Positions 256 to 60,708 of a stretch of 64,000 nucleotides of DNA are shown here, one piece after another. Within the stretch, counting starts at the first letter, position 1. Each line of letters begins with the position of its first letter. Source of the stretch: Paracidobacterium acidisoli (GTDB taxonomy: Bacteria > Acidobacteriota > Terriglobia > Terriglobales > Acidobacteriaceae); NCBI RefSeq assembly GCF_003428625.2, contig NZ_QVQT02000005.1, positions 310,001 through 374,000 on the forward strand, written 5' to 3'. The notes beneath the pieces were generated by a model. The model was not told the DNA's origin, did no database searches, and saw only the letters and a program-made list of their open reading frames with translations. The position numbers and the translations under genes were made by a program.

Positions 256-1392
256 CTAATGTCTCTCCAGCAGCAGAGCCGCCTGCAGCATGGCTTTTGC
301 GTAGGCAATGTCATAGAGATTACCTGCATAACCGCCGCCGCCGGGATAGCCGGGTATGGGTCCCCGCTCACGATCGTAGTCAATGGCGCGTGGATGTTCC
401 GGATACACCTCCCTCGTGTACTTCAGCTTCACGAGTTCGCGCATCACCGCCAGCATGTTCACGTCTCCCTCATCGATGAAACCCTCGTCATACTTTACGT
501 ACGGCTTCATCACATGTGGATTGCGATAGTGCACGTGGTTGATTCGATCTCGGCTGCCGAAATACTGGCACACCGTCACCGGATCTTCGCCCATCTCTCG
601 TGTAACACCGCAATCAAAGGTGATCCCGTTCGAAGGGCTGTCCACAATCGTGATCAGATGTTTCCATCCCGCGACAGTTCCCATAATCTGCTGCGATCCG
701 CGGCTTAACGGATAGGGCGGATCATTCGGATGCAGAGCAAGTCGCACATTGGACTTTTCAGCGGCTGGAATGACAGCTTTCAGAAAGTAAGTGATATTAG
801 CCCACATTTCGGAAAGCGTATGAGCGCCTTCCTCAGGCAGCGGTGGAAGGTTTTTCATGCGGTCATAATCTGATCCCGTTAATCCGGCACCGCCTCTGCC
901 GGTCTCTCCAAAATAGCCTTCCATGGCGCGATGTGCATAGAAGTTATACTCGACGACCGGAACGCCGACTTTGCCAGCCGTCTCGATCGAATGCTTCACC
1001 TTTTCAATCTCTTCATCTCTGCCCGGACGCCCGTAAAGCGTATTGGTGAAGCCGGCAATCATCAGATTGCCAAGCTGCACCCCATTGGCTTTGAGCTTGT
1101 CGACAATGGGCTGCAGTTCATTTACTTCCCACGGTATCTTCGGGCCGCCGGAGAGCGCGTGATAGACGCCGATCTGTACAAGGCCGCGTATTTCCTTATC
1201 GGTGACGCCATCGCCAAGGCTGATGGCGCTCGCAATCTTCGGAGTGCCGCTACTTTCCTGAGGCATGCCGTCACCTAGCCACCAGGGCTTTTTCTCCGCC
1301 TGCGCCGCGGCGAGAACAGGTGAAAGCACAGGCGCTAACGCTGTCGCCGCCATCCCCTTAAAGAGACTTCTCCGTGAAAACCCGGATTTCAT
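256..1392 (-). CDS. Tat-exported mannonate dehydratase-like (UxuA family) protein
   Basis: The 378-residue protein starts with a twin-arginine signal (SRRSLFK at residues 6-12, then a hydrophobic Ala-rich stretch ending near AAAQA). The mature part is a xylose-isomerase-like TIM barrel resembling UxuA, which dehydrates D-mannonate to 2-keto-3-deoxygluconate in the cytoplasm. UxuA-like stretches are LHPNDPP near residue 220, TFDCGVTRE near 260 and HVHYRNP near 290, which supply His, Cys and Asp metal-site residues. The start has a GGGAGCG ribosome site 7 bases upstream. Export of a UxuA-type fold is odd, so the real substrate may be a periplasmic sugar acid. The family is fairly sure; the substrate is unknown. 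Confidence 0.8.
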   Translation of the reverse strand: MKSGFSRRSLFKGMAATALAPVLSPVLAAAQAEKKPWWLGDGMPQESSGTPKIASAISLGDGVTDKEIRGLVQIGVYHALSGGPKIPWEVNELQPIVDKLKANGVQLGNLMIAGFTNTLYGRPGRDEEIEKVKHSIETAGKVGVPVVEYNFYAHRAMEGYFGETGRGGAGLTGSDYDRMKNLPPLPEEGAHTLSEMWANITYFLKAVIPAAEKSNVRLALHPNDPPYPLSRGSQQIMGTVAGWKHLITIVDSPSNGITFDCGVTREMGEDPVTVCQYFGSRDRINHVHYRNPHVMKPYVKYDEGFIDEGDVNMLAVMRELVKLKYTREVYPEHPRAIDYDRERGPIPGYPGGGGYAGNLYDIAYAKAMLQAALLLERH

Positions 1393-41873: not shown

Positions 41874-44183
41874 ATGATTTGGATGATGAAGCGTTTACCC
41901 GTACTGCTCTGCCTGATTTTCTTCAGTACCTCTGCATGGATCACCGCGCAGACGCATAAGGATCCGGTCGATTACGTCTCCCCCAACATTGGCGGCATCG
42001 GGCAGCTGCTCACCGCGACCATTCCTTACGTGCAGTATCCGCACGGCATGGCTCGCATCGCGCCCGTCACCACGCCCGGCATCACCGATCGCTATCTTGC
42101 TGACAAAATATATGGCTTTCCCGCCGGCCCCGCCGTGCTGATGGCCTCCACCGGCACGGCGACTACGCATCTGAAGGACTACGCCTCAGACTTCGACCAC
42201 GACTTTGAAACCGCCACGCCGTATTACTACGCAACCGATCTGCTCACCTGGAAAATCAAAGCGGAGCTCACTGCAGGGAAGCAGTCGGTATTCTATCGCT
42301 TCACTCTGCCCGCCAGCCCGCATGCCCATCTCGTGCTTGGCCTCAAAGAAGGCTCGGAGCTGAAGGTTGTGGGTGACGCCGCGATCGAGGGAAGCCAGCG
42401 CATCGTCTCGCCCATCACAAAGGCCACCGATACCAGCGGTGAAACGCGCGAGTATTTTTATGCGGAGTTCTCACGCCCCTTCGGCGAGTACCAGACATGG
42501 AGCAGCGGCGCGCTCTCGCATCAGGCAGCGCAGACCGGCAATCGCATCGGCTTCGTGACGGATTTCCCCGCAACCGCTGGCGACCAGATCCAGGTGCGCG
42601 TCGGCCTGTCGTACATCAGCGCCGATCAGGCCCGTCGCAACCTTGAGCGCGAGATCCCGCAGTGGAACTTCGATCGCGTAAAGGCGGACGCTCGTGCCGC
42701 CTGGAATCAGGCGCTCGGAGCTGTCGATACAACCGGTGGCACGGAGCAGCAGCGGACCATCTTTTACACCGCGCTCTACCGCTCCCTCGGCCGCATGACC
42801 GACATCACCGAAGATGGCCGCTACTACAGCGCCTATGACCACGCCGTCCATCAGGCCGACGGTCATGACTTCTACATCGACGACGGCCTCTGGGATACCT
42901 TCCGCTCCCTTCACCCGCTCCAGCTTCTGCTCAACGCCCGCCAGCAGCAGGACATGATCCGCTCCTATCTGCGCATGTACGAACAAAGCGGCTGGCTGCC
43001 GTCTTTCCCGTCTATTGCCGGTGAGCAGGCCGTTATGATCGGCCATCATGCCGCTCAGTTCATCCTCGATACATACGAGAAGGGATACCGCGACTTCGAC
43101 GTTCGCGAAGCCTACGCTGCGATGCGAAAGAACGCCACCGACGCGACCATGCTTCCCTGGAGGCGCGGCCCGCTCACCTCTCTCGATCATGTGTATTTCG
43201 ATAAAGGATTTTTCCCCGCTCTGGCCTGGGACGAAGAAGAAACTGTGCTGGAGGTGACAGAAGAGCGTCGCCAGTCCGTCTCCGTCACCATTGAGAACAG
43301 CTACGATGACTGGTGTGTCGCGCAGCTCGCCAAAGCGCTCGGCAATCAGGCCGACTACCTCTATTTCACGAAGCTCGCGCACAATTACGAAAATCTCTTC
43401 AACCCCGAGATCGATTTCATGGCCCCCAAAAGCGCCGACGGCAAATGGGTCGCCCATTTCGATCCCAAACTTGGCGGCGGTCAGGGAGCCAGAGATTACT
43501 TCACCGAAGTCGATTCCTGGATCTACACCTTCGGCGTGCAGCATGACGTTGCCGGCCTCATTCATCTCATGGGTGGACGCGATGCCTTCAACGCAAAGCT
43601 TGATCAGCTCTTCGTCGAGCAGTACGGCACCTCGAAATGGCACTTTCTCGATCAGTTTCCCGATGCAACAGGACTGGTTGGCCTCTATGCTCAGGGCAAC
43701 GAGCCCAGCTTTCACATTCCTTATCTGTACGATTTCTCCGGACAGCCCTGGAAGACGCAGCGCCGCGTGCGCCAGCTGATGGATCTCTGGTACACCGACA
43801 CTCCGCTCGGCATTCCAGGTGACGACGACGGCGGAGCTACTTCATCGTGGTATGTCCTCAGCGCGCTCGGCTTCTATCCCGTCTGCCCCGGCAGCCCGGT
43901 CTATGAAATCGGCAGCCCGATCTTCGAGAAGAGCACGATCCGCATGGGCAATGGAAAGGACTTCACGATCCTTGCAAATCACGTCTCGGCGCAGAACAAA
44001 TACATTCAGTCGGCGACTCTGAACGGAAAGTCTCTGAACAAAGCGTGGTTCAGCCAGTCCGACATCGAGAATGGCGGAACACTCGTGCTGCAGATGGGCG
44101 GCACGCCGAATGAGCAGTGGGGCAGCGCGCCGCAGGACGCTCCGCCCTCGATGACGCCGGTCGCCGCCTCAGCCGGGCAGTAG
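41874..44183 (+). CDS. Exported GH92 alpha-mannosidase
   Basis: The 769-residue protein has a signal peptide (ending WITAQ near residue 26), an N-terminal beta domain and an (alpha/alpha)6 barrel. GH92 signatures are VSPNIGG, YPHGMARIAP, LWDTFRSLHPL near residue 340, LPSFPSIAGEQAVMIG near 380, QGNEPSFHIPYLYD near 610 and GIPGDDDGGATSSWYVLSA near 640, the last two holding the acid and Ca2+ site. These Ca2+-dependent exo-alpha-mannosidases trim mannose from N-glycans or mannans. It opens the glycan operon; the next gene starts 17 bases after its stop. Confidence 0.95.
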   Translation: MIWMMKRLPVLLCLIFFSTSAWITAQTHKDPVDYVSPNIGGIGQLLTATIPYVQYPHGMARIAPVTTPGITDRYLADKIYGFPAGPAVLMASTGTATTHLKDYASDFDHDFETATPYYYATDLLTWKIKAELTAGKQSVFYRFTLPASPHAHLVLGLKEGSELKVVGDAAIEGSQRIVSPITKATDTSGETREYFYAEFSRPFGEYQTWSSGALSHQAAQTGNRIGFVTDFPATAGDQIQVRVGLSYISADQARRNLEREIPQWNFDRVKADARAAWNQALGAVDTTGGTEQQRTIFYTALYRSLGRMTDITEDGRYYSAYDHAVHQADGHDFYIDDGLWDTFRSLHPLQLLLNARQQQDMIRSYLRMYEQSGWLPSFPSIAGEQAVMIGHHAAQFILDTYEKGYRDFDVREAYAAMRKNATDATMLPWRRGPLTSLDHVYFDKGFFPALAWDEEETVLEVTEERRQSVSVTIENSYDDWCVAQLAKALGNQADYLYFTKLAHNYENLFNPEIDFMAPKSADGKWVAHFDPKLGGGQGARDYFTEVDSWIYTFGVQHDVAGLIHLMGGRDAFNAKLDQLFVEQYGTSKWHFLDQFPDATGLVGLYAQGNEPSFHIPYLYDFSGQPWKTQRRVRQLMDLWYTDTPLGIPGDDDGGATSSWYVLSALGFYPVCPGSPVYEIGSPIFEKSTIRMGNGKDFTILANHVSAQNKYIQSATLNGKSLNKAWFSQSDIENGGTLVLQMGGTPNEQWGSAPQDAPPSMTPVAASAGQ

Positions 44184-44200
44184 AACGAGATAGCATACAC

Positions 44201-46666
44201 ATGGAACAGATTCTTCGCCCCGTCTGTCCCGTGCGGGGCTCGTGGAGATGTGGTTTGAACAGCCCCCGTATCAGAGTCATCCTGCCTGTCCTGCTGGTTC
44301 TTCTCCTTGGCGCGGGTCGCGAAAACGCCCGCGCGCAGTCTCCCTCCACCGCCTGGCACGATGGCCGCTTCCATGTCGATACCGCCGGCGTCGTCGGCCG
44401 CTCCGATATTGTTCTTGGACAGCCCAACCTCAAACCGGCACAGGCCATGCCTCTGGGCAACGGCACTCTGGGTGCCGCCGTCTGGTCCGCCGACGGTCTG
44501 ACCGTGCAGCTCAACCGCGCTGATACGCTGCCTGATCGCGATTCTCCAGGGCAGGTCGTCATTCCCGGCCTCTCCGCTGTCACGCAGGCAAAGGACTACA
44601 GCGGACGGCTCGACCTTTATAACGGAGAGTTCAAGGAGAGCGGCAATGGAATGAAGGCGACGGTCTTCGTGCAGCCGCATACCGACACACTGATCGTCGA
44701 CGTCACCGGAGCCGATCCCAAAACGCCGCAGACCGTTCAGCTGAAGCTGTGGGCGCCTCGCACTCCAAAGGCATCGATCGAAGGCCAGACCGGCCTGCTC
44801 GCACAGTCGTGGATCGACAATAAGAACCCCGGCTCGTCAGGCCGTCCCTTCGGCTCCCTGGCCGCCGTAACCGCTCTTGGACAAAATGTATCTGCTGCTG
44901 TTACCGATCCTCTCACCATTACCGTAAGCGTTAAGCCTTACGCCGATGGCCACTTCCGTGTCATCGTTGCGTCGCCGCATTACGACGGACGGGAGAGCGC
45001 GGCATCTCTGATTCATCCCGCGCTCGCGGATACGTCGGCCATCGCGCATCGCGAGTGGTGGCACGGCTTCTGGGACCACGCCGCCCTCATCCGTATCAGC
45101 TCTGCCGACGGCTCCGGTGAGTACATGGAAAACCTCCGGCACATCTATCTCTTTGCCGCCGTCGCCGAAAAAGGTTCCGAGTATCCCGGCACCCAGGCGG
45201 GCGTTGCCGACATGCTCTCCTCGGCGCGCGATGTCCATCACTGGGACTCCTCCGCCTTCTGGCACTGGAACCTCCGCATGCAGGTTGCCGCGAATCTCGG
45301 AGCCGGCCTTACCGACGTCAACGCTCCGTACTTCAATCTCTATCGCGAAAGCCTTCCCGGCATCGAAGACTGGACCCGGCAGAATATGCACAACCTGCCC
45401 GGCATCTGTGTTCCGGAGACGATGCGCTTCAACGGTCCCGGCATTGAATACGAATCGAGCTGGACTCCGGCTACCATGGGCCGCGACTGCGATGCAGGCT
45501 ACAGGCCTTACTACAACGCGCGAACCATCTCCACCGGAGCCGAAGTCTCTTTCTGGATCTGGCAGCAGTATCTCGCCACCGGCGACCGCAAATTCCTCGC
45601 CGAAAACTATCCGGTCATGGCCGCCTCCGCGCGCTTTCTCCTTGCTTATCAGAAGCCGGGAACGGATGGCCTGCTCCACACCAGTCCCTCCAACGCGCAC
45701 GAAACGCAATGGGACGTGATCGACCCCACCACCGATCTCGCCGGGATCAAAACGCTCTACCCCGAGACCATCGAAGCGGCAAAGCTGCTCGGCAAAGATC
45801 CCGATCTCATCCGCCAGCTGCAGGCAGCGCTGTCAAAGATCCCTGCATTTCCACGCACGCAGGAATCCGGTCCTCTGACACTGCTTCCGCCTACGGCCGA
45901 TGCCTCTGGCCAGGATGTGATCGCGGCTTCGTATCAGCCCGCCGCTGAAAAGCACAATATTGAGAACATCGGCCTTGAGCCCGTGTGGCCCTATGGACTA
46001 ATCGGCGATGCCTCGCCTGACTTCGCGCTCGCTCGCCGTACCTATGAGCATCGCCCCTTTGTGGCTCAGGCCGACTGGAGCTGCGATCCCATGCAGGCCG
46101 CCCGCCTCGATCTGGGCAGCGAGGTGCAGGCCACTCTGGTGAGTCTCACCGAGCATTACCAGGAGTTCGCCAACGGCCTCGCCAACTGGGGCGGCCACTT
46201 TGGCGAGTTCTATGTCGAGGAATCCGGCGTCGTCGCAGACGCTCTGCAGGAAGCCCTCGTGCAGGACTACGACGGTCTGATCCGCATCGCGCCCGCCATC
46301 CCCTCCGGATGGGACTTCGACGGCAGCGTATATGTGCGCGGAAAGACAAAGGTCGATGTTCAGGTAACGAAGGGCGTTGTGACCACCGCCGTCATCGAGG
46401 CTGGAACGACAGAGCAGCTTAAAGTACGCAACCCCTGGCCCGGCCGGAAGGTCGATGTCATCTCCTCCACCGGAGCAAAGGCGATTACGGCAGATTCCGG
46501 ACCGGTACTCACCTTTCATGCCGTCGCCGGTACCCGTTATCTGCTCGCGCCGCAGGACGCGCCATCATCGGCGCAGCCCTTCGCGCCCGTCACCGGCACT
46601 CCCGCCACGGCTGCAAAGCGTCTCGGCCCCGTGCAGATTGGCCTCTTTCCCGGCAGCGGTGAATGA
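44201..46666 (+). CDS. Exported six-hairpin glycosidase, GH95-like (alpha-L-fucosidase type)
   Basis: From ATG 44201 the protein has 821 residues; TTG 44255, with GGAG upstream, gives a cleaner signal peptide (LPVLLVLLLGAGRENARAQ). The N-terminal beta domain has MPLGNGTLGAAVWS near residue 90, a GH95-type opening in a weaker form, and the helical barrel includes HHWDSSAFWHWNLRMQ, NLPGICVPETMRFNGPG, GAEVSFWIWQQYLATGD and SPSNAHETQWDVIDPTTD. GH95 enzymes cut alpha-1,2-fucose or galactose. The match is partial, so the substrate is open. It overlaps or abuts the esterase gene that follows and lies 17 bases behind GH92. Confidence 0.75.
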   Translation: MEQILRPVCPVRGSWRCGLNSPRIRVILPVLLVLLLGAGRENARAQSPSTAWHDGRFHVDTAGVVGRSDIVLGQPNLKPAQAMPLGNGTLGAAVWSADGLTVQLNRADTLPDRDSPGQVVIPGLSAVTQAKDYSGRLDLYNGEFKESGNGMKATVFVQPHTDTLIVDVTGADPKTPQTVQLKLWAPRTPKASIEGQTGLLAQSWIDNKNPGSSGRPFGSLAAVTALGQNVSAAVTDPLTITVSVKPYADGHFRVIVASPHYDGRESAASLIHPALADTSAIAHREWWHGFWDHAALIRISSADGSGEYMENLRHIYLFAAVAEKGSEYPGTQAGVADMLSSARDVHHWDSSAFWHWNLRMQVAANLGAGLTDVNAPYFNLYRESLPGIEDWTRQNMHNLPGICVPETMRFNGPGIEYESSWTPATMGRDCDAGYRPYYNARTISTGAEVSFWIWQQYLATGDRKFLAENYPVMAASARFLLAYQKPGTDGLLHTSPSNAHETQWDVIDPTTDLAGIKTLYPETIEAAKLLGKDPDLIRQLQAALSKIPAFPRTQESGPLTLLPPTADASGQDVIAASYQPAAEKHNIENIGLEPVWPYGLIGDASPDFALARRTYEHRPFVAQADWSCDPMQAARLDLGSEVQATLVSLTEHYQEFANGLANWGGHFGEFYVEESGVVADALQEALVQDYDGLIRIAPAIPSGWDFDGSVYVRGKTKVDVQVTKGVVTTAVIEAGTTEQLKVRNPWPGRKVDVISSTGAKAITADSGPVLTFHAVAGTRYLLAPQDAPSSAQPFAPVTGTPATAAKRLGPVQIGLFPGSGE

Positions 46667-46695
46667 AGCATGTATCCACCTGCAGGAGCGAGCTC

Positions 46696-47952
46696 ATGAG
46701 CCATCATCCGCATGACCGGTTCCGCAGCTTCTGGATGGCAGCTCTGCTGCTGGCCGTCACTGCCATGCCGGCCGCGGCCCAAACCGGCGCTGCATCGTGG
46801 GTCGGAACCTGGGCCACCGCTCCCGTTCGCGACGACGCAGCCTCCAGCTTCACCCGGCAGACCCTCCGCCAGGTGATCTGCACCAGCGTTGGTGGTTCGT
46901 CCGCGCGCATACACATCTCGAACCTCTTCGGCACGCGCCCTCTGCGTGTGGAAGATGTGCACATCGCCCGGCTCGGCGACGGCTCTTCCATTCTTCCGGA
47001 TACCGACCGCGCCGTCCTCTTCCGCGGCAGCCGTTTCATCGTCATTGCTCCCGGCAAAGAAGCCGTCAGCGATCCCGTCGCCTTCCAGGTTCCGGCTCTC
47101 AGCGATATCGCCATCAGCTTCTGTCTGCCGAGACCTTCAGGCCGGGCCACATTCCATGGCGCTGCCCATCAGACCAGCTACCTTGCCTCCGGAGACGTCA
47201 GCAGCAGCAAAGACCTGTCGGATGCGAAGACAACAGAAAGCACCTGGTTCCTCACCGGTCTTGACGTGCAGGGAGCCGGGCTCCACGGCGCCGTCGTGAC
47301 CCTCGGAGCCTCCATCACCGAAGGCTATTTCTCCACGCCCGGCGCCAATCGCCGCTGGCCAAATGTCCTCGCGCAAAAGCTGGTGGAAGCCGGATTCGGC
47401 ATCGGCGTGCTCAACGAGGGCATCAGTGGAAACCGCCTGCTCGCCGACGGCGCAGGAGCCAGCGCCAGGCATCGCTTTCGCCGCGATGTGCTGGAGCTGC
47501 CCGGAGTCCGCTGGGTCATCTTCGCCGACGCCCCCATCAACGACCTCGGTTCCACAAAGCCGCAGCCCTCGGCCGCGCAGCTCATCGCCGGCATCGGGCA
47601 GCTTATTGCGCTGGCGCATCAGAGCCATATTCAGTTTTTCTGCTCCACCCTCACTCCGTATGAGGGTGCAAACTACTGGACTCCCGCCGGCGAAGCGGCC
47701 CGCGAGCGCGTCAACGATTTTCTTCGCAGTGAGGCGAGTGGCTGCGACGCGGTCATCGATCAGGACGCCGCCACGCACGATCCCGCTCACCCCACCCGCT
47801 TTCTTCCCGCCTACGATCACGGCGATCATCTGCATCCCAACGACGCCGGCCTTCAGGCCATCGCCGGCGCCGTAAATCTGGCCCTCTTTACCCAGGCATC
47901 GGGCCGCGACGGAATGCGCAGTTCTCCGTCCGCCGGCCGTCACCGGCCATAA
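46696..47952 (+). CDS. Exported SGNH/GDSL-family hydrolase (esterase)
   Basis: AGGAG 7 bases before ATG 46696 sets this start; an in-frame ATG at 46663 overlaps the preceding stop (ATGA). The 418-residue protein has a signal peptide ending AAAQ, then a beta domain and the SGNH core: block I LGASITEG near residue 210 with the nucleophile Ser, block II Gly in NEGISGN, block III Asn in PINDLG and block V DHLHPND with Asp and His. It probably removes acyl groups such as acetate from glycans, helping the two glycosidases in the same operon. Confidence 0.9.
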   Translation: MSHHPHDRFRSFWMAALLLAVTAMPAAAQTGAASWVGTWATAPVRDDAASSFTRQTLRQVICTSVGGSSARIHISNLFGTRPLRVEDVHIARLGDGSSILPDTDRAVLFRGSRFIVIAPGKEAVSDPVAFQVPALSDIAISFCLPRPSGRATFHGAAHQTSYLASGDVSSSKDLSDAKTTESTWFLTGLDVQGAGLHGAVVTLGASITEGYFSTPGANRRWPNVLAQKLVEAGFGIGVLNEGISGNRLLADGAGASARHRFRRDVLELPGVRWVIFADAPINDLGSTKPQPSAAQLIAGIGQLIALAHQSHIQFFCSTLTPYEGANYWTPAGEAARERVNDFLRSEASGCDAVIDQDAATHDPAHPTRFLPAYDHGDHLHPNDAGLQAIAGAVNLALFTQASGRDGMRSSPSAGRHRP

Positions 47953-54630: not shown

Positions 54631-54654
54631 CGCATTCAATCCGATGCACCGCTG

Positions 54655-54683
54655 AGGGCCTGCCTGAAAAGCAGGCCCTTTTT
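54655..54683 (+). terminator. Terminator after the PQQ dehydrogenase gene
   Basis: AGGGCCTGC and GCAGGCCCT form a 9-bp stem followed by TTTTTA. It lies between two convergent genes. Confidence 0.9.
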
Positions 54684-55542
54684 ACTTCATGCCCGCCAGA
54701 ACCCCGCGCATATACGCGTAGCTCTTGGTCACGCCCGGCATGGGATCGTCGCCATGCACCTCGTATTCGAGGTCGACATATCCCGGATAACGAATCTCCT
54801 GCAGCGCCTCGAAGATTTCGCGCACCGGCATCTTTCCGTCTCCCACTGCCACCTGGCTGTCCTTTTCATGAAAGTCGGTAAGGTCTTTCATGTGCATATT
54901 GAACAGCCGTGGTCCTGCTGCGTGAATGGCCTGCACCACATCTGTCCCTGCGCGAACCGTATGGCCCACGTCGATGCAGCAGCCCATCCGCGCATCCATA
55001 TGACCCACCGCCTTCAGCACATCGAGCGGAGAATGCCATATCTTATCCTCCGGGCCATGATTATGAATCGCAAGCCGGATGTCATACTCCTTCACAAACT
55101 TCTCAATGCGCGGCAGCACATTTGGCGCCGGATCGCCCGCGACAATCACCGGTATGCCGGCCCGTTTGCAGTACTCGAACTTGCTCCGAATATCGTCGTC
55201 ATCATCTTTACTGAAGTAGATGGCCCCGGCAGCATGCAGCTTAATACCCGCAGCGGCGTAGTCAGCCAGCGCCTGGCTCTCTCCCTGCGGGTCCATCGGA
55301 AGATGATCTTTGGCATCCTTCGCATTCAGATCGCTGATGCTGAGCTCTTTCATAAAGCCGATCATCTGCGCCCGGCTGAAGTTGCGGAACGTATAGCTGG
55401 CCAGCCCCAGACGAATCGGCTCCTTCGCTCCCTTTGCCGAAGTCGCCCGAAAAGCGGATGACGACAACGGTACCGCCGTTAGGGCCGCTGCCGCCGCTCC
55501 GGTCCGAAGAAAGCCGCGCCGCGAAAATGTGTCCTTCATCAT
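54682..55542 (-). CDS. Tat-exported xylose-isomerase-like TIM-barrel protein
   Basis: The 286-residue protein starts with a twin-arginine signal (SRRGFLR at residues 7-13, then an Ala-rich helix). The barrel matches the sugar-phosphate isomerase/epimerase (AP-endonuclease-2-like) family: LGLASYTFRNF, LAIHNHGPEDK near residue 160, CIDVGHTVRAG near 195, MHMKDL near 220 and YVDLEYEVHGDDP near 260, supplying His, Asp and Glu metal ligands. Export implies action on free sugars, not phosphates. It is the last of three genes read from 57939 and follows the Gfo/Idh gene by 40 bases. Confidence 0.88.
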   Translation of the reverse strand: MMKDTFSRRGFLRTGAAAAALTAVPLSSSAFRATSAKGAKEPIRLGLASYTFRNFSRAQMIGFMKELSISDLNAKDAKDHLPMDPQGESQALADYAAAGIKLHAAGAIYFSKDDDDDIRSKFEYCKRAGIPVIVAGDPAPNVLPRIEKFVKEYDIRLAIHNHGPEDKIWHSPLDVLKAVGHMDARMGCCIDVGHTVRAGTDVVQAIHAAGPRLFNMHMKDLTDFHEKDSQVAVGDGKMPVREIFEALQEIRYPGYVDLEYEVHGDDPMPGVTKSYAYMRGVLAGMK

Positions 55543-55582
55543 GACAAATCGCTCCTGCTTTTCAGGATATGGATCACGCCGC

Positions 55583-56902
55583 CTAAATATGCGGTGCCCA
55601 GCCCTTCTCGTACTCTCGTCCCCACATCTTCATCGCTTCCGCATCCTCCAGGATGCGCCCATCCTGAGGATTCAGCTTCAGCTCCCGATGGACCTCCCAC
55701 GCAATATTGGAGAGCTGCAGCATCGTCACCGCAACATTGCCTACCTCAATCGGAGCATGCAGCTTCTCGCCCGTGCGGATTCCGGCGATAAAGTTGGCAA
55801 AGTGCGCATCGGTCATGGAATCGCGCCCGACCAGATCGGCGGATGAGGTCGCCTTGCCGGTTCGGTACTCGCTGGTCTTCTTTCCGCCCAGATCGTAGAC
55901 CTCGTAACCGTCGCGATCCACCAGCACCGTACCGGTCGTCCCCATAATCGTCGAGCCGCGATCGCGATTGTAGAGCTTCATCCCCTGGCAGCTTTTACCC
56001 TCCCAGGAAAGCATCTTGTCGTCGTACTCGAAGTTCGTCACCAGCGTGTCATAGAACTGCCAGTCGTCTTTGAACTGGTACCGGCCGCCCGACGAGCTCA
56101 CCCGGTTCGGATAATCGACGCCGAGCGCCCACCGGCACACATCGACCTCGTGCGTCCCGTTGTTCAGCGCCTCACCCGTGCCCCAGATGCGGAACCAGTG
56201 CCAGTTATACGGCTGCACGTTGTCTTTGTAAGGCCGCCGTGGTGCAGGCCCCTGCCAGAGGTCCCAGTCCAGAGTCGCCGGCACCGGCGCCGGCTTACCC
56301 GTCCCGATCGACTTTCTCGTATTGCTGTACCAGCATTTGGCGTAATACGCCCGGCCAATCAGCCCGTCGTGAATCTTATTTACGATCTCGATCGTGTGCG
56401 CCGACGAGCGCTGCTGCGTGCCCATCTGCACCAGCTTGTTGTACTTCTTCTGCGCTTCGATCAGCAGCGCGCCCTCTGCCGGATTATGGCTGCACGGCTT
56501 TTCCACGTACACATGCTTGCCCGCCTGCAGTCCCGCAATGGCCATCGGCGTGTGCCAGTGGTCCGGCGTGGCAATCGTGATCGCGTCCACATCTTTGCTC
56601 GCCAGCACCTTCCGGAAATCCTTCTCCGTCGCTGCCGAATAACCCATTTCCTTTTGCACGCCGCCGGCAAATTTTTCCAGAATGTTGCTTTCCACATCGC
56701 AGACATGCGTAATGCGGACCGCGTCGCTGTTGGCCTTCAGGGAGGACAAATGTGCATAGGCCCGGCCGTTCAGCCCGATCACCGCGAAGTGAAGGCGCTC
56801 ATTCGCTCCCGGAATCTGTGCATAACTTTTGGCCGTCGCGTTTATAGCAAGCCCTGCGGCGCCCACGGCAAGTGTGTCCAGAAATTCGCGTCGAGTAACC
56901 AC
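55583..56902 (-). CDS. Tat-exported Gfo/Idh/MocA-family oxidoreductase
   Basis: GTG 56902, with GGAGAG 5 bases upstream, gives 439 residues that begin at once with the Tat motif TRREFLD; ATG 56944 is a longer option overlapping the upstream gene. After the signal comes a Rossmann fold (FAVIGLNGRAYAHLSSL), VEKPCSHNPAEG near residue 115 with the catalytic Lys of the EKP motif, and the C-terminal alpha/beta domain (GTHEVDVCRWALG, PYNWHWFRIWGTGE). Such enzymes use a tightly bound NAD(P) to oxidise or epimerise sugars, as in 3-keto-glycoside pathways. It lies in a three-gene unit with two exported isomerase-like genes. Confidence 0.88.
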   Translation of the reverse strand: MVTRREFLDTLAVGAAGLAINATAKSYAQIPGANERLHFAVIGLNGRAYAHLSSLKANSDAVRITHVCDVESNILEKFAGGVQKEMGYSAATEKDFRKVLASKDVDAITIATPDHWHTPMAIAGLQAGKHVYVEKPCSHNPAEGALLIEAQKKYNKLVQMGTQQRSSAHTIEIVNKIHDGLIGRAYYAKCWYSNTRKSIGTGKPAPVPATLDWDLWQGPAPRRPYKDNVQPYNWHWFRIWGTGEALNNGTHEVDVCRWALGVDYPNRVSSSGGRYQFKDDWQFYDTLVTNFEYDDKMLSWEGKSCQGMKLYNRDRGSTIMGTTGTVLVDRDGYEVYDLGGKKTSEYRTGKATSSADLVGRDSMTDAHFANFIAGIRTGEKLHAPIEVGNVAVTMLQLSNIAWEVHRELKLNPQDGRILEDAEAMKMWGREYEKGWAPHI

Positions 56903-56961
56903 TTTTCTCTCCGTCGTCTGTTCTTTTGTATGGAAATGGCCCATCCGGCGCTGCCGGAAAC

Positions 56962-57939
56962 TCAGCAGCCCAGACCGTCGCTTTCGAGGTCCTGCTTCAG
57001 CCCCTTAATGCTGATGCGCGTCGAAGCCTCCGGAGTGCCCGCGCCGCGCCAGTGCGTCTCCAGGCTGACCGCCTCTTTGTATCCCTGCTTCGCCAGCGCG
57101 CGAAACTGTCCGCGCCAGTCAATGATGCCGCCGCCTACGGGAGCCCACTCATATCCGCCTCCCGGCTTCCGCACGACATCTTTGCAGTGGCAGTGGCCGA
57201 TCCGGTCTTTGGGAAGCAGCTTGTACCCGTTCGGATAAGGAGTTTCTCCGGCCGCGGCGGCATTGCCCGGATCCCAGTTCAGCATGAAGTTGCTGTTCGT
57301 CACCGCCGCCAGCGTCTCCGCGGCCTCGGCGCCCGTCGCCGTGTTGCACGACATCTCGTTTTCCAGCAGCAGAATCATGCCGTCTTTTTCGCAGCGCGCT
57401 GCCGCCTCCCGCAGCTTCTGGTTCATCGCCGCGCGATACGGCTTCTGATCATCGAGCCGCCAGAAATCGAAGCAGCGAATACGCCGCGTGCCGAAGGCCT
57501 TCGCCAGTTCTATCGAGCGCTCAAGCACTCCGTCCTGTGCCTTAAAATCCGCATCCGCGTGAAACTGATCGCGGCGCTCGCCCTTTGAGGAAAGCGGCGC
57601 GCCCGGCCAGTCCACCTTGAAGAGCGGACTGGCAATATCGGTCACGCGAAGCCTGTACTTCTCCAGAATCTTCCGGCTCTCGTCGACTTCCTTCGCGCTC
57701 AGATCGGTGATGTTCTTGTTCCACATCCCGCGCAGCTCAATCCAGCTCAGACCAAAGTCATGCGCAGCGACCGAGCAGCTGTGCTCAAAGTCCTGAGAGA
57801 TTTCATCGTTGATCACGGACAGGCGAAACGGGCATGTCTGCAGTGCCGGTTCAGCGAATAAAGGCATCGCACCGTCCACAGCCGAAAATGCAGCAGCCGA
57901 GGCTGTCGCCTGAAGAAACTGCCTGCGAGAAATGCCCAT
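56962..57939 (-). CDS. Tat-exported xylose-isomerase-like TIM-barrel protein
   Basis: The 325-residue protein begins MGISRRQFLQ, a twin-arginine signal, with cleavage expected near FAEPA. The barrel shows the isomerase/epimerase pattern: INDEISQDFEHSC, GLSWIELRGMW near residue 65, LLENEMSCNT near 170, LNWDPGNAAAAGE near 205, HCHCKDV near 230 and VSLETHWRGAG near 290, with Glu, Asp, His and Glu as likely metal ligands. It is the first gene of the unit and is followed 59 bases later by the GTG start of the Gfo/Idh gene. A role in handling keto-sugars made by that enzyme is inferred. Confidence 0.87.
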   Translation of the reverse strand: MGISRRQFLQATASAAAFSAVDGAMPLFAEPALQTCPFRLSVINDEISQDFEHSCSVAAHDFGLSWIELRGMWNKNITDLSAKEVDESRKILEKYRLRVTDIASPLFKVDWPGAPLSSKGERRDQFHADADFKAQDGVLERSIELAKAFGTRRIRCFDFWRLDDQKPYRAAMNQKLREAAARCEKDGMILLLENEMSCNTATGAEAAETLAAVTNSNFMLNWDPGNAAAAGETPYPNGYKLLPKDRIGHCHCKDVVRKPGGGYEWAPVGGGIIDWRGQFRALAKQGYKEAVSLETHWRGAGTPEASTRISIKGLKQDLESDGLGC

Positions 57940-58063
57940 GAGTTTTCAATGCTCCCGGTCGCATAATATGGCTTCCGGGAAACCATCATTCACGCAATCA
58001 TCCGGAAATGCAAGGCCGGGGGCATGATAGACAGCCTCATATCTGGAGCTGCGGGCATGTTAT

Positions 58064-59080
58064 TTATCGCTTCGGTTCTGCCCATCCTCCGGATACTGCC
58101 GACTGAAAGATCGCCTCGATAACAGCCATGTTTTTGATCGCGTCTTCCACCGGAACCGGCACTTCCGTATTGTCCAGAATGGCTCTCGAAAACGCGTCGC
58201 CCTGCACTGTGTACTGGTCGCATGTCGGAAAGGTCTCCGTCGTGATCCCCGCGCCGAAAAGATCACCTCCCAAATCGAGGAAGAGGCGCGTAGGCCGATC
58301 GATGGGCGCATTAAATGGAATTTCAATCTCGATGCGTCCTTTCGTTCCCAGAAACTGCACGCGCTGGTAAGGAACAATCTGCGTGCTGCAGGTAAAGATC
58401 GCCTGCCCATGAGGGAAGTCGAGAATCGCCGAGGTCAGCCGGTCCGTCTTCATCTGCGGATCGCGATCGATCAGAGAGACCACACGCGTCGGCTCCTGCT
58501 CAAAGGCAAAGCGCGAAGCCTGAACCAGATAGCATCCGATATCCATCATCGCGCCGCCGCCGGTTTCCATCTGATTCCGAATATTCGCCGGATCGATGTT
58601 GAAGTAGCTGAAGGCCCCCATGATCGAGCGCAGCTCGCCAATTCTTCCCTCGCGAAGCAGCTCTCGCAGCCTCACCCACTGCGGCGCCGTGCGCACCATA
58701 AAGGCTTCGCCGATCTTCACTCCCGTGCGTGCGCGGACGGCAAGCAGCGTCTCCGCTTCAGCCACCGTAAGGCTGACCGGCTTCTCGCACAGCACGTGCT
58801 TGCCGGCCTCCGCGGCTTTGATCGTCCACGGCACATGGAGCTGATTGGGAAGGGGATTGTAAATCGCATCGACATCCGGGTCGGCAAGAAGCTCCTCATA
58901 CGAGCCGTATGCTGTCGCAATCCCGAGCGGCCCCGCGGCTTCTCTGGCCTTCGTCAGATCGCGCGATGCTATGGCGGTTACGCTGCTGAGCTGGCCCAGT
59001 TGCATTGCGGGAATCACCTTCTTAACGCCGATCGCGGCAGTGCTGAGAACACCCCAGCGCACTTTTTTGTTCGTAGCCAT
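58064..59080 (-). CDS. Cytoplasmic Gfo/Idh/MocA-family oxidoreductase
   Basis: ATG 59080 (MATNKKVRWGVLSTAAIG) is the likely start; the frame upstream is noise. The 338-residue protein has no signal peptide. It carries a Rossmann motif GVLSTAAIG, the catalytic EKPVSLT near residue 95 (CEKPVSLTVAEAE), MDIGCYLVQASRF near 175 with the conserved His replaced by Cys-Tyr neighbours, and the family C-terminal domain. It resembles dehydrogenases acting on sugars or sugar alcohols, such as glucose-fructose oxidoreductase relatives. It is 124 bases from the exported unit and may finish the pathway inside the cell. Confidence 0.88.
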   Translation of the reverse strand: MATNKKVRWGVLSTAAIGVKKVIPAMQLGQLSSVTAIASRDLTKAREAAGPLGIATAYGSYEELLADPDVDAIYNPLPNQLHVPWTIKAAEAGKHVLCEKPVSLTVAEAETLLAVRARTGVKIGEAFMVRTAPQWVRLRELLREGRIGELRSIMGAFSYFNIDPANIRNQMETGGGAMMDIGCYLVQASRFAFEQEPTRVVSLIDRDPQMKTDRLTSAILDFPHGQAIFTCSTQIVPYQRVQFLGTKGRIEIEIPFNAPIDRPTRLFLDLGGDLFGAGITTETFPTCDQYTVQGDAFSRAILDNTEVPVPVEDAIKNMAVIEAIFQSAVSGGWAEPKR

Positions 59081-59445
59081 GGAAATCGAATCCATCCCTT
59101 TCAGGACGCATAAGCGTCTTCGCTGAAAAAACAAAATTATGGTCAGAAAGCCTGTTCGGTACAGAACGACGGTGCCATCGCGTGCAGCTCTCTCAGCCAC
59201 CGGTACAGGCCCGGCCTTTCGCGGCAGGCTCCATCATACTCAATCATTTTGGGCAGTGCTTTTCATCATGGAAGTCACCGGCGAAAGGCGGCGCGCCCCG
59301 CCGGGAAAGCCATCTGGTTGACAGCCGTCTCAGTGCGGAGATAAAAGGACTGCCGTCATCGTACAGCCTCACTCCTTCGCCGCCGCGCTTCGCGGCAGTT
59401 ATCAAAATCTGTAATCATCCGAACGCAAAGCTTAAGAGAGAGCCC
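59081..59445. other. Divergent intergenic region between Gfo/Idh and enolase-superfamily genes
   Basis: This 365-base gap must carry promoters for both divergent genes. A frame open through it in line with the gene at 59446 has no protein-like character. I saw no clear operator or RNA gene. Confidence 0.35.
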
Positions 59446-60708
59446 ATGATCAGCGATCGAAGAGCATTCCTCAAAATGGTTGCAGCCGGTTCCGTCGCCT
59501 TCGCTGAACCCTGCCGGCTCGCGGCCGCTGCCCTGCGCAATAAAGTCCGCATCACCGACGTGAAGTGCATGATCGTCCGTGGAACGTGGGACTGGAACCT
59601 CGTGAAGGTGGAAACAGACTCCGGCCTGTATGGCATCGGAGAAGCATACTGGGGTCCGGGCATAAAAGACCTCATCCTCCGCGAGCTGAAGCCTGCCATC
59701 ATTGGCGAAGACCCACTCAATGTCGACAAACTCTACACCTGGATGCTGATGAGAAGCGCCGGCGCGGGCGCCATCGGCGGTCAGACCGTCTCAGCCGCCA
59801 GCGGCGTTGAGATCGCTCTGTGGGATCTGGCCGGAAAGATTCTGGGAACCCCCGTCTGCAACCTGCTTGGTGGCCGCTTTCGCGATCGTGTGCGCTTCTA
59901 TCGAACGCTGCAGCTTCCGCACGGCAATATCGCCGATCCCGTCGCCTGGCGCGACCAGGTTGCAGAAGCCCGAGCGGAAAAGTGGGGCTGGACGGCATTT
60001 AAATTTCAGGGGAACGGGATTCCTCCCGCGCTTGATCCTCAGTTTAAAGAGCCCGGCCACGATCGGTTCACCCGCAATCTCACGGCAAAAGATATTCGCG
60101 AAATCGTGACCGCCATGGATACAGTTCGCGACTCTCTCGGTCCCGACATACCCTTCGCCATCGACTTTCACTGGGCCTATGACCTTCATGACGCCATCGC
60201 GCTGGGCAAAGCGCTCGAGCACCTGAATCTGATGTGGATGGAAGACCCTCTGCCGCCAGAGAATCCCGAGCCTATGGCGATACTTGCGCGCTCCACCTCC
60301 ACGCCCATCTGCACCGGCGAAAATCTCTATGGATTTCAGGGATTCCGCCGCCTGATCGAAGCGCAGGCCTGCGCCGGCGTTCACATCGATATTCCCAAGT
60401 CCGGCGGGCTGCTCGAATCCAAACGCATCTCTGACTTTGCCGACGCTTATTACATCTTCACTGCGGCGCATAATCCCGCCAGTCCTGTGGGCACCACCGC
60501 TTCAGCGCACGCGGCAGCCGCCATGCGTGGCTTTCGCATCCATGAGCTCGCGAACTGGATCGACTGGTGGCCCGATCTCGTCATGCGCGACGGGCCTTTC
60601 TGGCAGGACGGCTATTTCACCATTCAGGACAAGCCTGGCCTCGGCATAGAAATCAATCCCGATGTCGCTAAAGCTCACCTGATGCCGGGAGAAACCTGGT
60701 GGGGTTAG
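59446..60708 (+). CDS. Tat-exported enolase-superfamily (mandelate racemase type) sugar-acid dehydratase
   Basis: ATG 59446 starts a 420-residue protein with DRRAFLK in its first 11 residues, a Tat-like motif, and a hydrophobic stretch to about residue 28. The enolase-superfamily core is clear: GIGEAYWGPG near 66, VEIALWDLAGK near 120, the lysine-bearing TAFKFQGNG near 185, metal ligands Asp in AIDFHWAYD near 240, Glu in MEDPLPPENP near 266 and Glu in ICTGENLYG near 290, and AAHNPASPVG near 345. It fits galactonate- or glucarate-type dehydratases. Export is unusual and links it with the other Tat-carried sugar enzymes nearby. Confidence 0.87.
   Translation: MISDRRAFLKMVAAGSVAFAEPCRLAAAALRNKVRITDVKCMIVRGTWDWNLVKVETDSGLYGIGEAYWGPGIKDLILRELKPAIIGEDPLNVDKLYTWMLMRSAGAGAIGGQTVSAASGVEIALWDLAGKILGTPVCNLLGGRFRDRVRFYRTLQLPHGNIADPVAWRDQVAEARAEKWGWTAFKFQGNGIPPALDPQFKEPGHDRFTRNLTAKDIREIVTAMDTVRDSLGPDIPFAIDFHWAYDLHDAIALGKALEHLNLMWMEDPLPPENPEPMAILARSTSTPICTGENLYGFQGFRRLIEAQACAGVHIDIPKSGGLLESKRISDFADAYYIFTAAHNPASPVGTTASAHAAAAMRGFRIHELANWIDWWPDLVMRDGPFWQDGYFTIQDKPGLGIEINPDVAKAHLMPGETWWG

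Follow-up and report, generated by a model that had tools for sequence, protein, structure and literature searches.

A conserved cassette of two TIM barrels and a Gfo/Idh oxidoreductase as a candidate Tat-exported glycoside-cleaving system in Acidobacteriota

In Escherichia coli, the YcjQ-YcjR-YcjS system combines a Gfo/Idh oxidoreductase with a TIM barrel to act on 3-keto glycosides; it is cytoplasmic and epimerises its substrates rather than cleaving them. The chemistry of two other Gfo/Idh enzymes, Zymomonas GFOR and Caulobacter AAOR, takes place at C1. Both carry twin-arginine translocation (Tat) signals and are single enzymes that couple the oxidation and reduction of two sugars (PMC4628093). 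An operon of Agrobacterium tumefaciens encodes the TIM barrel AtOGE, a second TIM barrel, AtHYD, and a Gfo-type oxidoreductase, plus the flavin dehydrogenase GlycDH; both barrels are termed 'sugar phosphate isomerase' (PMC10628242). C-glycoside cleavage by DgpA-DgpB-DgpC likewise proceeds through Gfo/Idh oxidation and then a metal-dependent TIM-barrel lyase (PMC8563793). Furthermore, alongside the BT_2158/BT2157 pathway for 3-keto-glycosides in Bacteroides, PF06439 proteins have been tied to the cleavage of 3-ketotrehalose and 3'-ketolactose (PMC9007349). Here, a locus of Paracidobacterium acidisoli is compared with these systems. The window, that is, the whole stretch of 64,000 nucleotides that was analysed (contig NZ_QVQT02000005.1, positions 310,001 to 374,000), contains three adjacent genes, P3, P2 and P1, which encode a TIM barrel, a Gfo/Idh oxidoreductase and a second TIM barrel. 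From the sequences, the balance tips slightly towards a Tat-exported cassette that would split periplasmic glycosides and need no classical glycosidase.

The cassette lies on the minus strand in the order P3, P2, P1, with gaps of 17 nt between P3 and P2 and 40 nt between P2 and P1, and the three genes probably form a single transcription unit. Families were assigned by Pfam and NCBIfam profile matches. The first gene, P3 (56962-57939), encodes a xylose-isomerase-like TIM barrel with the motif SRRQFLQ (Pfam AP_endonuc_2, 5.9e-32). P2 (55583-56944) encodes a Gfo/Idh oxidoreductase with TRREFLD (Pfam GFO_IDH_MocA, 1.5e-19), and P1 (54682-55542) a TIM barrel with an H-x-H motif on beta-5 and the motif SRRGFLR (Pfam AP_endonuc_2, 6.9e-18). 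Two relatives of P2 (L057 and L056) start with MVTRREFL or MPTRREFL, and the true P2 start may lie further in.

What is conserved is the P3-P2-P1 module, often together with an outer-membrane transporter, while the neighbouring genes P4, P5 and P6, described below, drop out. The phylum was sampled with 297 genomes; at most 5-8 candidates per genome were scored in the P1-, P2- and P3-like searches, and the location counts used 60 P1, 81 P2 and 31 P3 rows. P1-like genes occurred in 53 genomes, P2-like genes in 49 and P3-like genes in 29, and all three were held by 22 genomes, within 6 kb in 10 of these. Where two of the genes were held together, the distance was at most 6 kb for P1 and P2 in 20 of 38 genomes, for P2 and P3 in 14 of 26, and for P1 and P3 in 14 of 23. 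Across 41 near genomes, the source genome included, P1 and P3 were patchy. Named P1 loci numbered at least 580, and the best 80 of them, some on short contigs, were also inspected, with identity thresholds of 45% (P1-P3) and 40% (P4-P6). All 80 belonged to Acidobacteriota. P2 was found near P1 in 61 of them and P3 in 36; P2-P1 was consecutive on one strand in 61, and the complete P3-P2-P1 in 29. Of the loci that were compared with one another, nine, counting the window, had the order P3-P2-P1 and one had P2-P1-P3. Because some of the named loci share their genomes with the loci labelled G, the signal, residue and adjacency counts contain duplicates.

The N-termini of the three proteins are conserved as well. 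In 109 of 111 P1, 81 of 83 P2 and 60 of 65 P3 copies (duplicates included, 8 incomplete copies left out), a hydrophobic stretch follows a twin-arginine motif. Since these signals are conserved and TatC is encoded in the source genome, Tat export of P1, P2 and P3 is likely; each combines a twin-arginine motif and a hydrophobic N-terminus with a genome that encodes a Tat translocase. The Pfam TAT_signal model scored P1 at 22.1 bits, just below its cut-off of 22.7, and was not listed for P2, P3 or P5. A sequence-only reading of the same DNA had placed four Tat-tagged proteins here, namely P1, P2, P3 and the dehydratase-like P5 with the motif DRRAFLK, and both the coordinates, families and motifs (open reading frames, Pfam/NCBIfam) and the likely export agree with it. 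A keyword search of a limited literature collection returned no paper on Tat-exported barrels of this kind.

The active site of P1 provides the closest link to a known eliminase. In AtOGE, the metal is bound by His132, Asp163, His189 and, weakly, Glu233, and His134 is catalytic (PMC10628242). A profile built from eight P1 proteins matched the AtOGE chain 8bvk in hmmsearch at E 0.0017 (rank 10), with profile positions 156-247 on chain positions 128-222. An ungapped offset places P1 residues H160, H162, D191 and H217 (numbered on the full-length protein) on His132, His134, Asp163 and His189; this correspondence rests on the ends of the match and on spacing, and because the stretch of the chain is three residues longer than that of the profile, the alignment must contain a gap. 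P1 E261 stands at the spacing of Glu233 but beyond the aligned stretch, and is matched by spacing alone. All five residues (H160, H162, D191, H217 and E261) were invariant in 114 of 114 P1 homologues. Six-frame translation of 132 loci gave 4,989 segments, of which 113, all of them P1 copies, show the strict spacing pattern. Among the 18 AP_endonuc_2 matches of the source genome, this pattern occurs in one, P1 itself; three more show a loose form. P1 thus has the xylose-isomerase-like TIM barrel, the metal ligands and the catalytic histidine of an AtOGE-type enzyme, and because its residues match those of AtOGE, we lean to P1 as the putative eliminase of the cassette. By far the closest solved structure to P1 is 3lmz, which shares the H-x-H motif and is labelled a 'putative sugar isomerase' without assigned function.

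P2 finds its nearest named family among the glycoside 3-dehydrogenases. Its best NCBIfam model was NF058561, at 148.7 bits about twice the next (IolG, TIGR04380, 70.5 bits; cut-off 355). In 149 sampled genomes of the phylum, with at most nine candidates scored in each, no protein exceeded the cut-off of NF058561, the best reaching 578 bits. The Acidobacterial proteins that fit this model best had a twin-arginine start in 12 of the 12 inspected, and Tat export looks normal for the NF058561-like branch in this phylum. The best relatives of P2 in the PDB were 8tdf and 8tdh, followed by DgpA (7xr9); GFOR was a weak match (E 6.7e-7). The motifs EKP and NNGTH were conserved among P2 homologues. Of the EKP lysine and the D-x-x-x-H motif, whose histidine is catalytic, P2 keeps EKP and the histidine, and its aspartate is replaced.

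Further evidence comes from relatives outside the window's own family. In five loci (L239, L241, L242, L243 and L244), a gene of the PF06439 type, the 3-keto-disaccharide hydrolase family, adjoins P2-P1. One of the five genes was identified by a Pfam match (E 9.9e-46), and the other four were assigned by similarity to it. In four of these loci, the PF06439-like gene, P2 and P1 follow one another on one strand, which puts it in the slot of P3; in L244 it is divergent. Such a gene was present in five of the seven P1-P2 loci outside the family (L240 and L250 lacking it), and there was no other match among the 132 loci. The cassette of the window contains no PF06439 gene, and eight PF06439 matches lie elsewhere in the source genome. 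Because P3 occupies the slot that a PF06439-type gene has in four relatives, P3 was considered as a cleaving barrel, and the opposite roles, in which P3 would cleave and P1 would hydrate, may apply instead.

An outer-membrane protein (OMP) is the most frequent companion of the cassette. In a census of neighbouring families, a CarboxypepD/TonB-type OMP occurred in 19 of 32 loci (window included), and the next most frequent family in 6; the 32 loci had been picked for holding cassette genes, and the OMP is the sole independent finding there. Of the 65 P3 copies with sufficient sequence, 30 had the cassette-linked OMP as their immediate upstream neighbour on the same strand; 29 of these 30 OMPs were at least 47% identical to a single reference protein, a count that takes in the locus of the reference itself. 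An OMP of this type was near P1 in 24 of the best 80 named loci. In the window, the slot upstream of P3 is taken by P4. The OMP class is common in such genomes and has three matches within the window. One of them, P7 (48308-52183, plus strand; CarboxypepD_reg and OMP beta-barrel of the TonB-dependent type in Pfam), was tried as the transporter of the cassette and set aside, since it is 25-33% identical to the OMPs of cassette loci and belongs to a common class.

Altogether, these features are best read as the known route of glycoside oxidation, elimination, hydration and reduction, here in a Tat-exported variant. P2, exported folded with NAD(P) bound, would oxidise C3 of the sugar. The resulting 3-ketone would acidify the C2 proton, allowing a metal-dependent TIM barrel to eliminate the aglycone and leave a 2-hydroxy-3-keto-glycal, which the other TIM barrel would hydrate (or epimerise). 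P2 would then reduce the 3-keto sugar, regenerating its bound cofactor in each round. Such a cycle would be redox-neutral, so that the NAD(P) held captive in P2 would be enough and the periplasm would need no free cofactor. Action on 3-oxidised glycosides is a better reading than the dehydration of free sugars. The fullest version of this proposal is tentative and, taken as a whole, rather doubtful: a self-contained, redox-neutral glycosidase machine outside the cytoplasmic membrane of many Acidobacteriaceae, made of a Tat-delivered P2 whose captive NAD(P) would start and finish the cycle and two Tat-delivered barrels for elimination and hydration, often with its own OMP transporter, in which the P3 family would be a new functional stand-in for PF06439.

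Compared with the described systems, the cassette shares with the A. tumefaciens operon one Gfo-type oxidoreductase and two TIM barrels (PMC10628242). It differs in its three Tat signals and in its weak sequence similarity to AtOGE, and no flavin dehydrogenase was seen among the scanned neighbours in the window, so that the first oxidation would fall to P2. The Bacteroides pathway (PMC9007349) is approached through the nearest named family of P2 and, in five relatives, through the gene of PF06439 type that adjoins P2-P1; P2 is nevertheless far below the family cut-off, and the window has a TIM barrel in the PF06439 place. In contrast to DgpABC, the cassette has Tat signals, has His rather than Glu as its first metal ligand and shows no third small-subunit gene, although no search was aimed at a DgpB-type protein.

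Several observations weigh against a glycoside-cleaving cassette. The similarity of P1 to AtOGE is weak (E 0.0017) and that to 3lmz far stronger (E 2.4e-61), and P3 has no catalytic histidine, a glutamate standing at the eliminase catalytic-His position. The score of P2 is far below the NF058561 (BT_2158) cut-off of 750, outside membership, and its lead is modest, given that two other Tat-tagged Gfo/Idh proteins of the genome score 122.5 and 111.4 bits on the same model. In addition, the aspartate of D-x-x-x-H, present in 8tdf and DgpA, is Asn in 88 of 94 P2 homologues and Asp in 3. The cassette itself has a patchy distribution: the three genes do not all fall within 6 kb in 12 of the 22 genomes that hold them, there is no P2 beside P1 in 19 of the best 80 named loci (some contigs being short), and P3 is also found with other Tat-tagged Gfo/Idh proteins in relatives. 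Tat-like starts are common in this genome, being present in 11 of 18 AP_endonuc_2 and 7 of 16 Gfo/Idh matches. This tally sets aside L086, with an odd motif, and L102, which is P4 with its motif in an upstream extension (the automated count was 12 of 18 and 8 of 16); all but one of the 18 AP_endonuc_2 matches score above the Pfam cut-off. The proximity of tagged enzymes is therefore less striking, and their conserved arrangement is the better evidence. Lastly, the fold does not discriminate, as each barrel resembles dozens of isomerases and epimerases whose scores lie within a few Z units.

The fold comparison was made on structure models of P1 and P3 with Foldseek and VIA-align, the P3 model having a predicted local distance difference test score (pLDDT) of 86. 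P3 superposed on AtHYD (8ro4) with Z 25.2 and a root-mean-square deviation of 3.3 over 281 residues, and many epimerases fit as well. AtHYD was among the Foldseek matches listed for both barrels (ranks 49 and 28), which carries no weight, and AtOGE 8bvk was not among the best 50 fold matches listed for P1, which is uninformative. An assignment of function from fold was accordingly rejected.

The alternative that survives best is a periplasmic epimerisation similar to that of YcjQ-YcjR-YcjS, in which P2 would form a 3-keto glycoside, P3 would invert a neighbouring centre and P2 would reduce the product, with no bond cut. It draws on the residues of P3, whose E193, D223, H249 and E294 form a metal/acid-base quartet; 66-68 of 69 homologues conserve these residues, and the others have gaps in their place. 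The quartet is the Glu/Asp/His/Glu arrangement of the YcjR type, which we take to be that of ketose epimerases and common to many epimerases. YcjR itself (6wn6, '3-keto-D-glucoside 4-epimerase') matched the P1 profile at 4.8e-5, but was absent from the 24 matches of the P3 profile up to E 1. A search of the PDB with P3 alone gave nothing at E 0.01, and the P3 profile gave weak and mixed matches, with Art22 as the best. The eliminase-type H-x-H site of P1 and the PF06439-type gene in five relatives point instead to cleavage, which makes pure epimerisation unlikely.

A second alternative is that the region is a generic cluster of Tat-tagged sugar enzymes produced by family expansion, its three genes sharing no substrate. 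The frequency of Tat-like starts in both families and the pairing of P3 with other Tat-tagged Gfo/Idh proteins in relatives are consistent with this, whereas the consecutive P3-P2-P1 of the 29 named and nine compared loci, and the fact that few other families recur nearby, argue for a defined unit and leave the generic cluster distinctly unlikely. In the 5.0 Mb source assembly of 15 contigs, six pairs of AP_endonuc_2 and Gfo/Idh genes lie within 2 kb of each other, where chance would give 0.27; the observed number was not reached once in 20,000 random placements. Three of the six fall in this window. Elsewhere in the genome, an adjacent pair of this kind, both proteins Tat-tagged, is found at C14:117516-118814.

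Thirdly, a periplasmic inositol-type route would use P2 as an IolG-like dehydrogenase, P1 as an IolE-like ketone dehydratase and P3 as an isomerase. IolE eliminates water adjacent to a ketone, which counts for this route, and it was the best NCBIfam match of P1 (TIGR04379, 31.5 bits), just as IolG was the second of P2. However, both scores are far below their cut-offs (290 for IolE), P2 scores twice as high on the glycoside 3-dehydrogenase, and the genes beside relatives are glycan-active (PF06439 type, GH31 and GH39), although no search was aimed at iol genes. An inositol route is thus quite improbable, and glycoside cleavage by oxidation and elimination remains preferred.

The remaining neighbours bear on the widest claim of the sequence-only reading. 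P4 (about 58064-59095, minus strand; start 59095) is a Gfo/Idh protein with a DIGCY motif and without a Tat signal, 124 nt upstream of P3 on the same strand. P5 (59446-60708, plus strand) resembles acid-sugar dehydratases of the enolase superfamily and has the Tat-like DRRAFLK; its nearest models are galactonate dehydratase (192.3 bits, cut-off 311) and ManD (171 bits, cut-off 550), both scores falling short, and among 40 relatives no homologue above 43% identity over the matched piece was found outside the source genome. P6 (52348-54630, plus strand) is a pyrroloquinoline quinone (PQQ) dehydrogenase fused to cytochrome c. Between the convergent P6 and P1 genes lies a stem-loop (54654-54680), terminator-like on the plus strand, which hints that the two belong to separate units; the scan gave 7 terminator-like sites in the region compared with a mean of 4.1 in shuffles, which is suggestive only, and a search for promoters, with 1 site against a mean of 1.8 in shuffles, was uninformative. 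A full five-family pathway, in which the PQQ dehydrogenase would supply aldonates, P5 would dehydrate them and the barrels, P2 and P4 would complete the route, is very improbable: P1-P6 all lie within 8.5 kb and the models nearest to P5 are those of galactonate and mannonate dehydratases, but P4-like and P5-like genes (at least 40% identity) occurred in 0 of the best 80 named P1 loci each and a P6-like gene (45% identity) in 1, P5 and P6 are on the strand opposite to the cassette, and the stem-loop separates P6 from P1. The module of five families was therefore rejected. The expected recurrence of the cluster in other Acidobacteriota held for P3-P2-P1 and failed for P4, P5 and P6, whereas the comparison with 3-keto-glycoside pathways gained ground through the P1 active site, the nearest relatives of P2 and the PF06439-type gene.

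Other genes were recorded around the cassette, its relatives and the window. GH31 enzymes adjoin cassette genes in two genomes (L057, 9402-12137; L230, 4804-7461). A ROK-family protein, possibly a regulator, is found near cassette genes in six loci (L224, L232, L233, L234, L246 and L248), with Pfam run on the L248 copy only. In L059, L061, L062 and L065, a relative of P3 stands with a different Tat-tagged Gfo/Idh protein; three of these four loci also have a TonB-type protein close by, and in L059 the P3 relative and the Gfo/Idh gene are separated by an ApbE gene. Upstream of P7 and P6, the window holds a glycan-use region (41874-47952) with a GH92 enzyme, a GH95-like protein and a GDSL esterase. 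Near the start of the window, a UxuA-like D-mannonate dehydratase (256-1392, minus strand) has the Tat-like start SRRSLFK, so that a usually cytoplasmic sugar enzyme is seemingly exported. Just left of the window and near this gene, a Tat-tagged AP_endonuc_2 protein and the best-scoring P5 paralogue (35% identity) are encoded at C11:306022-308685, perhaps a second exported acid-sugar set.

If the proposed cleavage is correct, many soil Acidobacteria would possess a conserved means of opening glycosides, perhaps even some that resist ordinary glycosidases, in a compartment that lacks free NAD(P). Xylose-isomerase-like barrels and Gfo/Idh oxidoreductases would become a three-enzyme route, and their Tat signals would have a reason. 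Furthermore, the structure 3lmz would gain a candidate chemistry.

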